60,648 nucleotides of DNA from an uncultured Pseudomonadota bacterium (GTDB taxonomy: Bacteria; Myxococcota_A; UBA796; SXON01). The stretch covers positions 1-60,648 of the forward strand of contig CAIMSU010000212.1 in assembly GCA_903844155.1 (NCBI GenBank), given 5' to 3'. Shown here one piece after another: positions 947 through 60,648 of the stretch. A model generated the notes under the pieces. It was given only the letters and a program-made list of their open reading frames with translations. It was not told the DNA's origin and did no database searches. The position numbers were made by a program, and so were the translations under genes. Positions within the stretch are counted from its first letter, which is position 1, and each line of letters begins with the position of its first letter.

Positions 947-952
947 TACACT
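947..952 (+). promoter_or_regulatory. -10-like box TACACT, 6 nt before start
   Basis: TACACT fits the TANNNT -10 pattern and is followed by exactly six bases and the ATG at 959, which would put the transcription start at or next to the start codon (leaderless mRNA). The same geometry occurs at nine other genes in the window. No good -35 box is visible. Confidence 0.5.
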
Positions 953-958
953 CGGGGG

Positions 959-2104
959 ATGTCGCCCGCCCGCCTCGTCCTCCCGTTCGCCATCCTCGTC
1001 GCCCTCACCGCCTGCAACGTGGACGTCGGCGTGACGAAAACCCAGGTTGGCTGCAACTCGGACGCCGATGGAGACGGTTCCTGCGACGACGAGGATTGCG
1101 CCCCGAACGACCCGACGATCTTCCCCGGCAACACGGAGACGTGCAACGGCGTGGACGACAACTGCGACGGCCAGATCGACGAAGGCGTGACGACCGCCTC
1201 CTGGCCCGACGCGGACGGCGACGGCTATGGCAACCCCAACGCTGAATACGACGGCTGCGTCGTCCCGGACGGCTACGTGGACAACCCGGGCGACTGCGAC
1301 GACGGCCAGCCCGCAATCCACCCTTCCGCTACCGAGGTCTGCAACGGCATCGACGACGACTGCGACGGCATGACGGATGAGGACCTGAACCAGACCTACT
1401 ACGCCGACAATGACGGCGATGGCTACGGCGACCCGCTCTCACCCATCACCGCCTGCCTGGCCTCGCCCGGCGTCGTCCTCGACTCGACCGACTGCGACGA
1501 CACAAACGCGGCGATCAACCCCGCTGCCGTCGACATCTGCGACGGTCTCGACAACAACTGCGACGGTGCCGTCGACAACGGCACGGACACCTGCCCCGAC
1601 GGAAAAAACTGCCTCGACATCCTCGAATCCGGCAAGTCCACCGGCGACGGCACCTACCTCATCGACCCGGACGGCAGCGGCGGCGCGGAGCCGTTCGACG
1701 TCCTCTGCGACATGACCAGCGACGGCGGCGGATTCACGCAGGCGATCCAGGATTACCTCGACGCCCTCGATCCAACCGAGCCCCGGACCTACCTCTACAC
1801 CCACGCGACGCAGTGGTACGAGTCGCCCTCCACGACCGACGTCTGGGACTGGACAACCTACGTCGGCCTCGACGGCACCTACCTTTACGGCGACGGCGCC
1901 ACCACGACAGGCTCGTTCCCGTGCACCTCCATCGAGCTCGGGACCTGGGGCGTCGGCTGTTCCAACGGCAGCGGCGGGATGTACAAGGTCCTGCCCGACT
2001 ACCTCGACGATCCGGCGCACGCGATGACCGAGGTCTGTCAGGATCAACCGGACAACTTTGGGGGCCCCGTGTGCCAGGACGGCGTAGCGATCTGGGTGCG
2101 GTGA
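959..2104 (+). CDS. Lipoprotein with MopE-like repeats and fibrinogen-like domain
   Basis: 381 residues. A signal peptide with lipobox LTAC is followed by three Cys/Asp-rich repeats of the MopE-like putative metal-binding type, each carrying a CNGxDDxCDG-like core and DxDGDG calcium-binding-like loops. After CPDGKNCLDILESG comes a segment matching the start of fibrinogen-related domains (LCDMTSDGGGFTQ). The remaining 110 residues are Tyr/Thr/Gly-rich with paired Cys. Such proteins are surface-exposed or secreted in Myxococcota, and metal or calcium binding is inferred from the acidic loops. A frame extending back to 704 overlaps the preceding gene and is rejected in favour of the lipoprotein start. 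Confidence 0.85.
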   Translation: MSPARLVLPFAILVALTACNVDVGVTKTQVGCNSDADGDGSCDDEDCAPNDPTIFPGNTETCNGVDDNCDGQIDEGVTTASWPDADGDGYGNPNAEYDGCVVPDGYVDNPGDCDDGQPAIHPSATEVCNGIDDDCDGMTDEDLNQTYYADNDGDGYGDPLSPITACLASPGVVLDSTDCDDTNAAINPAAVDICDGLDNNCDGAVDNGTDTCPDGKNCLDILESGKSTGDGTYLIDPDGSGGAEPFDVLCDMTSDGGGFTQAIQDYLDALDPTEPRTYLYTHATQWYESPSTTDVWDWTTYVGLDGTYLYGDGATTTGSFPCTSIELGTWGVGCSNGSGGMYKVLPDYLDDPAHAMTEVCQDQPDNFGGPVCQDGVAIWVR

Positions 2105-2168
2105 CCCTGGCTCCGCGGTGGACACCCGCGCCCGCCGTGCATAGCCCTCGCCCGTTCCGAGAACCACC

Positions 2169-2546
2169 ATGCCCATCTACGAGTACGCCTGCCCCGACTG
2201 CGGCCACAAGTTCGACGAGATCCAGAAGTTCTCCGATGCGCCAATCACCGTCTGCCCGAAATGTGCAGCGGCGAACGTCAAGAAGCTCATCAGTCAAACG
2301 TCGTTCATCCTCAAGGGCGGCGGTTGGTACAAGGACCACTACGGGCTGAAGCCCGGTGGCGACGGGGACAAGGGCGGAAAGTCCGAGGCCGCGAAGGGGG
2401 ACTCTGGCAAGTCCGAAGGGGCGAAGTCTGAGGGCGGCAAGTCCGAGAGCAGCAAGTCCGAGGGCAGCGCGACGCCGAGCGCGCCCGCGGCTTCGGCACC
2501 GGCGCCAAGCTCCAGCCCCTCGTCGGGGTCGACGGGCAGCACGTGA
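2169..2546 (+). CDS. FmdB-family zinc ribbon protein with low-complexity tail
   Basis: 125 residues. The N-terminal 60 residues are the FmdB/CxxC-CxxC regulatory-type zinc ribbon: [15 protein letters not shown] followed by VCPKC, giving the four Cys of one Zn site. FmdB-like proteins are small cytoplasmic proteins of unclear function. The C-terminal half is an unusual low-complexity tail built on KSEG/KSES units of about five residues, then Ala/Pro/Ser-rich sequence, which is probably disordered. The stop overlaps the folD start by four bases (GTGA), so the two genes are translationally coupled. Confidence 0.88.
2380..2465 (+). repeat. Degenerate 15-bp coding repeat (KSEG units)
   Basis: The codons for Lys-Ser-Glu recur at about 15-18-base spacing, giving a run of KSE(G/A/S) units in the tail of the FmdB-like protein. 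The unit length is a multiple of three, so expansion or contraction would keep the frame. Confidence 0.7.
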
Positions 2547-59044: not shown

Positions 59045-60082
59045 CTAGTGCACGTGCACGGTGGACGCGTGTGCCAGCCACCCCACCACGCCGCCGATGA
59101 GAAACGCCGCGACCACGAACGCCGCGGCCAGCTTGGGCGTGACCACGGCGGGTGTGGCACCTGGCGATGCCTGCGGGGCGGGCGGCGAGGCCTGGCCGCG
59201 GTGAAAAGGGGCGGAGTTACCGCCTTCCACACCCATGCCTGGCCAGGTGGGCTCGGCGCCGGCGTGCGCTTCGGGATCGAACGTCTGACTCGCGCTCCCG
59301 TGGGCCGCCAGCGCCGGGCGGGCCGGGGGCAACGTGGGGATCATGCCGCTGTCGACCGTTGCCAGGATGACCGTGATGTTGTCGTGCCCGCCGCGCTCGT
59401 CGGCGACCTCGACCAGCCGGTGCCCCGCCGCGACGACGTCACGCCCGGAGACGATCTCGGCGAGCTCATGCTCCTCGATCAGATCGTAGAGACCGTCGCT
59501 GCACAGGAGCAGGACGTCGCCCGGCTCGATGTCGAGTGGCTCGGTCCAGGCCCCGGGCTTGAACGCCTCACGGATGCCCGGCCCGCCGCCGATCGCCTGC
59601 ATGAGGATGTGCGCCTCGGGGTGGTTGCGGGCCTGATCGGCGGTCAGGATGCCCATCTCCACCATCCGCGCGACCCGGGTGTGGTCCTCCGATCGGACCC
59701 GATCGCGGCCGCGGAGGCGATAAAACCGGCTATCGCCGACCCAGGCGACCCAGACCTTGGAGCCGAGGACCCACGCCACCACCGCGGTGGTGCCCATCGT
59801 CGGCATGGCGCGGGCTTCGGCCACGCGGCGCACGGCGTTGTGCGCGTCCACCAGGGCCGCACAAAGCGCCTCGCGCGGTGCCGTGGCGTCCGCCACCGCC
59901 AGGCTGGACGCAATCGCGTCGACCGCGGTCGCGCTCGCGACCTCCCCGCCCTCGTGGCCGCCCATGCCGTCGCAAACGATGAGCAAGGTGCTCGCTGGGC
60001 CGAGAGGCACGATCCTCGCCGAGTCCTCGTTGAGTTCGCGCGCCCGGCCGACGTCCGTCGTGAGCTCGGTAAAAAGGGTCAT
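59045..60082 (-). CDS. PP2C-type Ser/Thr phosphatase with C-terminal anchor
   Basis: 345 residues. The catalytic domain is intact: RELNEDS (Asp20), CDGMGGH (residues 37-43), VGDSRFYRL, LLLCSDGLYDLI and GGHDNITVIL. A Pro/Ala-rich spacer leads to a C-terminal membrane helix (KLAAAFVVAAFLIGGVVGWL), making it tail-anchored with the phosphatase in the cytoplasm. A start 14 codons upstream is possible but less likely. It precedes the kinase gene by 68 bp in the same direction and probably opposes its activity. Confidence 0.93.
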   Translation of the reverse strand: MTLFTELTTDVGRARELNEDSARIVPLGPASTLLIVCDGMGGHEGGEVASATAVDAIASSLAVADATAPREALCAALVDAHNAVRRVAEARAMPTMGTTAVVAWVLGSKVWVAWVGDSRFYRLRGRDRVRSEDHTRVARMVEMGILTADQARNHPEAHILMQAIGGGPGIREAFKPGAWTEPLDIEPGDVLLLCSDGLYDLIEEHELAEIVSGRDVVAAGHRLVEVADERGGHDNITVILATVDSGMIPTLPPARPALAAHGSASQTFDPEAHAGAEPTWPGMGVEGGNSAPFHRGQASPPAPQASPGATPAVVTPKLAAAFVVAAFLIGGVVGWLAHASTVHVH

Positions 60083-60179
60083 CGGCCGACTCCGCGCGCA
60101 GCCGTGAGGCTGTAACCGGGTCACCGGAGGCGCGCCTGAGCGCGAGGTTCGCCGAGCACCGGCATCGGCGGGGCCGCGC

Positions 60180-60185
60180 TACACT
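60180..60185 (+). promoter_or_regulatory. -10-like box TACACT, 6 nt before start
   Basis: TACACT, six bases (ccctga), then ATG at 60192. It is identical in hexamer and spacing to the box upstream of the MopE-like gene at 947. No ribosome-binding site is seen, so a leaderless mRNA is likely. Confidence 0.5.
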
Positions 60186-60191
60186 CCCTGA

Positions 60192-60648
60192 ATGCTGCTG
60201 TCGCTTGCTCTACGGCTCCTCTGCACCGGAACCTGGACGTCCACCGCCTTCGCCGGAGACCCGCAGCCGGTCGTGCAGTTGCCCCCATCCGAACCCTCGT
60301 CGGATTGGGCGCCGCTGCTCCGTGAAACCGGGCTCGCCATTGGCCGGCCGAACGGTTGGGGGGTCACGGTGACGGACAGCGGCGACGGGGCGACGTGGAA
60401 GGTGCACGTCGTCGCCGCCGATGGGAAGGCGCAGGACCTGGTCGTGCTGATCCCGGCGAACGGGCAGGATCGCGAAGACCTGGCGTGGTACCTTGCGAAG
60501 CTGGCCGGCGCCACGCCCCCTCCCGTTGACGTGATCCCGCCCCAGATGCCGGCGCCCGCGCCGACGCCCACTCCCGCGCCCGAGCCGGCCCCCGCCCCGA
60601 CGCCAGCGCCCGCCCCGGCACCCAAGCCGGCCCCCGCCCCGACGCCAG
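60192..60648 (+). CDS. Secreted Pro/Ala-rich protein, truncated by window end
   Basis: The frame is open to the last base, so only the first 152 residues are seen. A signal peptide (LLSLALRLLCTGTWTSTAFA) is followed by a small beta domain of about 85 residues (GLAIGRPNGWGVTVTDSGDG, VHVVAADGKAQDLVVLI, EDLAWYLAKLAG) and then a repeating Pro-Ala-Pro-Thr/Lys/Glu tract from about residue 117. Such tracts span the periplasm or cell wall. The small domain was not recognised. It is divergent from the PP2C gene. Confidence 0.75.
   Translation, partial: MLLSLALRLLCTGTWTSTAFAGDPQPVVQLPPSEPSSDWAPLLRETGLAIGRPNGWGVTVTDSGDGATWKVHVVAADGKAQDLVVLIPANGQDREDLAWYLAKLAGATPPPVDVIPPQMPAPAPTPTPAPEPAPAPTPAPAPAPKPAPAPTP
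60540..60648 (+). repeat. Degenerate Pro-Ala coding repeat
   Basis: Short units encoding Pro-Ala and Pro-Thr (PAPAPTPTPAPEPAPAPTP and on) are repeated to the end of the window. The repeat is codon-periodic, based on ccggcgcccgc-like units. Confidence 0.7.

Follow-up and report, generated by a model that had tools for sequence, protein, structure and literature searches.

The window analysed here is the whole of contig CAIMSU010000212.1 (assembly GCA_903844155.1), 60,648 nucleotides (nt) from an uncultured deltaproteobacterial lineage, and the elements in question are hexamers beginning with TA that stand just upstream of a number of its start codons. The position, composition and conservation of these boxes make it very probable that they are the -10 elements of sigma-70 leaderless promoters, with transcription starting at or near the start codon. 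An initial annotation had named ten such hexamers, each followed by exactly six bases and the start codon, and all ten were found letter for letter at -12 to -7. With the start codon numbered as +1, the hexamer occupies the positions of a -10 element (-12 to -7) and a G at -14 takes that of the extended -10. The leaderless reading proposed in that annotation gains support, and several features can now be added to it: the G at -14, G-rich positions -15 and -16, the exclusion of Shine-Dalgarno (SD) sequences, the restriction to promoter-proximal genes and the conservation among congeners.

The genome to which the window belongs (G000; 8.13 Mb, 375 contigs, 68% GC) was tested at gene level over 1.06 of its 8.13 Mb, and the whole of it was used for pattern counts only. 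Starts were chosen by a purpose-written caller that relies on a coding score and the start codon and is blind to upstream sequence; it is simple and some start errors remain. It returned 851 genes in the 1.06 Mb (52 genes in the window), of which 20 were dropped for want of 60 nt upstream or because they were open at the 5' end, leaving 831 usable. Promoter-proximal genes, taken as those that are divergent or lie ≥20 nt from the upstream same-strand gene, number 537. Of these, 87 carry TA at -12, against a mean of 11.1 in 300 dinucleotide shuffles of their upstream sequence (standard deviation 3.1, maximum 21), so the recurrence is indeed beyond chance, as had been claimed. The longer pattern GnTAnnnT is found at -12 in 29 of these genes (shuffle mean 0.59, maximum 4) and is sharply peaked, with none at -10 and 0.37 per position beyond -60. 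TA at -12 (TA-12) is present in 112/831 usable genes (12.2 expected from other offsets) and in 47/236 divergent genes (4.4 expected), and is near background in the 195 genes that overlap or abut the upstream same-strand gene (<5 nt; 4/195, about 1.9 expected). At internal in-frame ATG/GTG codons TAnnnT stands at -12 in 19 of 14148 cases. The comparison with shuffled upstream sequence, which had been suggested as a check, therefore shows the enrichment in the part of the genome on which it was run, and the whole-genome counts agree: TANNNTN6ATG occurs 508 times and its reversed pattern 294 times, and GNTANNNTN6ATG 297 times with 109 for the reversed one.

A mixture model of the start context (genes scoring 30 or less left out; 412 promoter-proximal and 158 operon-internal genes, with -60 to -31 of the same genes as control sequence) divides the promoter-proximal genes into a box class (32%), an SD class (40%) and a class with neither (28%), which probably includes miscalled starts. 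Elsewhere the box class amounts to 2.9% of the operon-internal genes and 1.2% of the control sequence. The pattern is that of leaderless genes: a TA hexamer lies 5–7 nt before the start codon more often than by chance, it is confined to promoter-proximal rather than operon-internal genes, and SD sequences are scarce beside it (2% of 102 TA-12 genes, that is the 112 less 10 cases where the TA belongs to the upstream gene's stop codon, vs 36% of genes without TA at -13 to -11). A large minority of genes in this lineage thus appear to have a promoter directly against the start codon. The spacing from the start goes together with the kind of leader. None of the 54 genes with TAnnnT at -13 to -11 has an SD, and when TAnnnT lies at -29 to -25 an SD is found in 11/23 genes, often as cGGAG some 9 nt upstream of the start. 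The simplest reading would be one promoter type, followed either by no leader or by a minimal one.

In the mechanism that we propose, a sigma-70 (RpoD) promoter would start transcription on the start codon or no more than about one base away; the mRNA would therefore be leaderless, beginning at the first codon without a ribosome-binding leader, and so the ribosome would initiate on the 5'-terminal AUG or GUG without SD pairing. The extended -10, GGGnTAnnnT, would carry recognition, the -35 being usually undetectable, and genes with the box ~15 nt further upstream would have a short leader, often with an SD. From this arrangement we infer where exactly the 5' ends lie and that translation is leaderless. 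The six-base spacing, invariable in the ten boxes first described, turns out to be only the commonest one genome-wide: in the mixture model the T of the TA is at -12 in 54% of the box class, at -11 in 22%, at -13 in 11% and at -14/-15 in 11%. The last group would predict leaders of 2–3 nt, and there is also a small excess of TAnnnT at -15 (8/537 genes, with 0.85 per position further upstream). Both would suit a situation in which the boxes do serve as -10 elements while the functional mRNA is often leadered, either because the main transcripts begin a few nucleotides before the start codon or because second promoters supply longer leaders that predominate. We consider this unlikely, given that over half of the boxes sit exactly at -12 and 22% at -11, and that SD sequences are missing from all 54 TAnnnT genes.

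The box resembles an extended -10 element, GGGnTAnnnT. Its TA is strong in the mixture model (T 0.90, A 0.97), as is the G two bases before it (0.81; G at -14 in 71% of the 102 TA-12 genes), and G is found at -15 and -16 in 52–53% of the 112 TA-12 genes, compared with about a third on average (18–49%) at -60 to -17. T at -7 is present in 47% of the 102. Extended -10 sigma-70 promoters of the E. coli type (TGn) likewise have a G two bases before the hexamer and can dispense with the -35. The G is common to both, while the T of TG, at -15, is not favoured here (TGn 10/54, GGn 16/54). The primary sigma factor encoded in G000 matches the RpoD family at 397 bits (cut-off 354), and its region 2.4/3.0 reads TYATWWIRQAITRAI...RIPVHMIETINKL, with HMIE present, the canonical form that in E. 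coli reads the -10 and the extended -10. We infer that RpoD is the reader of the boxes.

Conservation was followed from 21 starts, of which 14 have a box, in 379 kb of same-genus DNA from four genomes, leaving out rows in which the alignment did not begin at residue 1–3, the start codon was out of line (17724 in G002; 26397 in G001, G002 and G004) or identity was <50%. In 13/15 usable pairs, which come from six window box genes whose coding frames are conserved, TA is kept within -13 to -11 while the flanks diverge. It stands at -12, -11 and -11 in the three orthologues of 17617, at -11 in 3/3 orthologues of both 22685 and 38172, at -12 with G at -14 in 3/3 orthologues of 22738, and at -13 in the single usable orthologue of 26397, where TTGACC is also found upstream of the G003 and G001 orthologues. 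The box starts 959, 38425, 45756, 49309, 60192, 21581, 49263 and 58976 have no orthologue row in the same-genus DNA searched and lie outside the 13/15. The non-box genes 31544 and 33367 show TA within -13 to -11 in 0/8 pairs; the other non-box starts (33482, 34138, 30920, 30441, 29906) are misaligned in the relatives and were left out of the count. In a wider set of orthologues TA is within one base of -12 in 10/12 TA-12 pairs. At 17724 neither of the two usable orthologues keeps TA at -13 to -11; their TA box lies instead at -23/-25, 11–13 nt further from the start, and GGAG stands in the leader, which looks like a switch between a leaderless and a short-leader state.

The signal extends to relatives. 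By gene profile, TA-12 is found within the genus in 21/191 genes of G003 (2.4 expected), the one sizeable sample there, and in 1/27 in pieces of G004 and G001 (0.5), within the family in 16/117 genes of G015 (1.6) and 4/63 of G013 (0.7), and in G029, of the same order, in 12/111 (2.1), with 5/81 (1.4) in G036, 4/27 (0.8) in G032 and 2/40 (0.6) in G031. TANNNTN6ATG exceeds its reversed control in 22/22 genomes of the window's family (f1), with ratios of 1.2–3.5, and in 13/16 other members of the order. When GNTANNNTN6ATG was compared with its reverse in a sample of 141 phylum genomes, a ratio of at least 2 was seen in 8/8 members of the family, 6/17 of the rest of the order, 1/4 of the rest of the class and 24/112 other phylum members, of which 65/112 were below 1.2. 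Low ratios are weak evidence of absence, since a higher AT content probably dilutes the ratio. Among 43 named genomes examined, the box pattern outnumbers its reverse in Deltaproteobacteria HyVt-553 (106 vs 58), a Myxococcales metagenome-assembled genome (MAG; 146 vs 44) and Demequina (127 vs 38), equals it in an Archangium MAG (73 vs 73) and falls below it in a Binatia chromosome (178 vs 223).

Could the box be a translation signal instead, an S1 or other non-SD ribosome-binding site that keeps a constant spacing to the start on ordinary leadered mRNAs? The fixed distance and the missing SD would fit a ribosome-binding motif too. However, genes that overlap or abut their upstream neighbour need such signals and yet are without the box, the same kind of box recurs at -29 to -25 and is then often accompanied by an SD, as a promoter with a short leader would give, both usable orthologues of 17724 have the box further upstream with GGAG in the leader, and one gene has a -35-like TTGACC at 17 bp. 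A translation signal is therefore very improbable.

The placement of starts itself deserves scrutiny. Four of the ten boxes (17724, 22738, 26397 and 38425) begin with an in-frame TAG or TAA, and since -12 is a multiple of three, the choice of starts is biased towards them. In addition, in 10/112 TA-12 cases, including 44879, the TA belongs to the stop of an upstream gene that ends 9 nt before the start, and 4/10 of these run into a GGAG-type SD. Among 96 unambiguous promoter-proximal starts TA-12 is found in 29, and once stops at -12 are removed 14/79 remain (1.5 expected), 13 of the 14 having G at -14. A mixture estimate of 49.5% leaderless for the 96 starts is inflated by these stops and was not used. 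With TAC and TAT alone, 29/236 divergent genes have TA-12 (2.5 expected), and an excess of TA is seen at the out-of-frame position -11 as well (37/537, 8.9 expected). These counts refute in-frame stop bias as the sole cause, leaving it to inflate the numbers moderately; that the boxes are merely an artefact of start calling, with TAA/TAG over-represented four codons upstream through open-frame starts being placed just after stops, is the least credible explanation, as it would predict neither the G at -14 nor the loss of the SD. In the same-strand pairs of G000 exactly 9 nt apart (n=10) the upstream stop is TAG in nine, TAA in one and TGA in none; in the two of the ten that read TAGACT the stop may also serve as a -10 box.

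Several observations weigh against the boxes being leaderless promoters. Genome-wide, only about one box in two has T at -7, and of the ten first described only three (959, 38425 and 60192) have it and fit TANNNT. There is no -35 enrichment: for a TTGACA-like element at 15–19 bp, at least 4/6 matches occur in 15% of the 87 TA-12 genes, compared with 13% when a control region of these genes is scanned, so that the -10 side carries the case for a promoter. One individual exception is 26397, with TTGACC at 17 bp and without G at -14. Exact -12 is kept in just 6/12 of the wider orthologue pairs, with TA at other offsets kept in place in 19/62. TA-12 is weak in the small samples from G002, of the same genus (1/46, 0.8 expected), and G027 (3/110, 1.7), and the order members G030, G032 and G035 have fewer TANNNTN6ATG than the reversed pattern. 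Finally, in small plasmid controls of the method, 150 kb each, Deinococcus (expected positive) has TA-12 in 5/67 genes (1.45 expected) and Cupriavidus (expected negative) in 3/42 (1.38), which is not clearly separate.

In the window, the motif-blind caller chose the same start as the initial annotation for eight of the ten box genes, the exceptions being 17617 and 49309. For 17617 it placed the start at 17578 (minus strand), but the protein that begins at 17617 is matched from its first residue by 3/3 same-genus orthologues, at 88–93% identity. For 49309 it chose 49195; since the 49195 version overlaps the opposite-strand gene that starts at 49263, the start at 49309 is more plausible, though less certain than that at 17617. 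G at -14 is present in eight of the ten boxes, the exceptions being 26397 and 22685, which has G at -15. On the plus strand, the putative -10 box TACACT (947–952) lies 6 nt before ATG 959, with G at -14 and T at -7, and precedes a lipoprotein-like coding sequence (959–2104). It is followed by TAGCTC (17712–17717, ATG 17724, its TAG doubling as an in-frame stop; mixture-model posterior 0.99), TAGCTG (22726–22731, GTG 22738; 0.98), where the gene is presumably polyphosphate-kinase-like, as judged from its sequence, and TAAAAA (26385–26390, ATG 26397; 0.93), with the -35-like TTGACC at 26362–26367, 17 bp before it. Further along are TAAGCT (38413–38418, GTG 38425, with both G at -14 and T at -7; 0.99), TACGCC (45744–45749, ATG 45756, G at -14; 0.91), TATCCC (49297–49302, GTG 49309; 1.00 for that start) and TACACT (60180–60185, ATG 60192, G at -14 and T at -7; 1.00). 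On the minus strand, TATGAA (17624–17629) stands before ATG 17617 with G at -14 (0.93 for that start), and TACCTC (22692–22697; 0.92) before ATG 22685, where a nucleotidyltransferase-like protein starts with MLYAVILAGGRGTRFWPLS.

Four boxes had been overlooked in the initial annotation, all on the minus strand and with posteriors of 0.96–0.98: TAGTCG (38178–38183; 0.98), 5 nt before ATG 38172, and the probable boxes TACCCG (21587–21592; 0.98), 5 nt before ATG 21581, TACACC (49272–49277; 0.97), 8 nt before GTG 49263, which is divergent to 49309, and TAGCTT (58985–58990; 0.96), 9 nt before GTG 58976. The genes with a good SD that had been cited as lacking the box include one, 44879, for which this does not hold: the minus-strand TAGGGA (44886–44891) stands at -12 of its ATG. 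This look-alike was not counted as a promoter, its TAG being the upstream gene's stop and GGGAG a likely SD. In the compact divergent pairs 22685–22738, 49263–49309 and 17617–17724 only 45–106 bp separate the start codons, with a box on each side, and these pairs would represent back-to-back leaderless promoters. The window also suggested a link of the boxes to secreted proteins or lipoproteins, which we rejected, as hydrophobic N-termini differ only slightly in frequency (43% of the 87 TA-12 genes, 34% of 137 SD genes and 35% of 313 others). Positions 18650–18790, within the minus-strand gene 18233–21154, have short DNA matches at many sites in G000–G004, as in a multi-copy domain or repeat family.

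The description of the genome as Myxococcota-like was not confirmed by name. In the RpoD tree the lineage groups with the MAG 'Deltaproteobacteria bacterium HyVt-553', its nearest named relative, inside the order clade (support 100/99), with HyVt-553 next to G032 at lower support (94/90). The polyphosphate kinase of the window is closest, among the 80 named loci listed, to those of Candidatus Binatia/Binatota (58–59% identity; L092 and L093), with only 45% identity to that of a Myxococcales MAG, although for RpoD Binatia reaches only 51%. Lateral transfer or missing close records are possible reasons for the Binatia-like kinase.

These results suggest that a little-described deltaproteobacterial lineage uses leaderless transcription, and GGGnTAnnnT followed by 5–7 nt is a concrete signal that gene callers would need there to find correct starts. 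The patchy spread in the phylum and the congeneric switch at 17724 open the gain and loss of leaderless expression to comparative study. A wider proposal, for and against which we see equal chances, is that the whole deltaproteobacterial family relies on GGGnTAnnnT, replacing the -35 and abutting the start in roughly one promoter-proximal gene in three (the GGG form and this share being measured in G000 only), and may interconvert leaderless genes and genes with a minimal leader plus SD by start shifts of ~11–15 nt, as at 17724. If true, such interconversion would offer a natural series for the evolution of leaderless translation.

That bacteria have leaderless genes with a TAnnnT box is well established. 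A survey of genomes describes them, with a TAnnnT-like -10, mainly in Actinobacteria and Deinococcus-Thermus (Zheng et al., 2011; PMC3160421), they have been mapped in Mycobacterium tuberculosis, and predictions by GeneMarkS-2 put leaderless transcription at up to 40% of transcripts, in 21.6% of the bacterial species in its set (Lomsadze, 2018, as cited in PMC9581028). The suggestion that systematic use in the present genome would be a rarity was too strong, as Table 2 of PMC3160421 predicts leaderless genes in 8/33 delta-Proteobacteria genomes, on average 15.8% (range 5.7–20.6). The main text of that paper does not contain 'Myxococc' or 'Sorangium', and, to judge by titles and the first lines of abstracts, leaderless transcription in Myxococcota is not reported in any of the literature matches listed. 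In Deinococcus-Thermus a -10 abutting the open reading frame (ORF) acts as a promoter and gives leaderless mRNA for ~30% of ORFs (Zhong et al., 2025; PMC12340547). The share is similar to the 32% of promoter-proximal genes here, although the denominators differ, and the promoter role was reporter-tested there, whereas here it is deduced from sequence; the word 'extended' does not occur in the main text of that study. Like the genes described in PMC3160421, those of the present lineage have TAnnnT shortly before the start and lack an SD. In that paper the high-GC groups have plain TAnnnT, and a TG peak that lies upstream and takes over the role of the -35 is reported for several low-GC genomes; unlike its high-GC groups, the genome studied here combines 68% GC with a strong upstream G element (GGGn). 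What is possibly new is the lineage together with its G-rich extended -10 at 68% GC.

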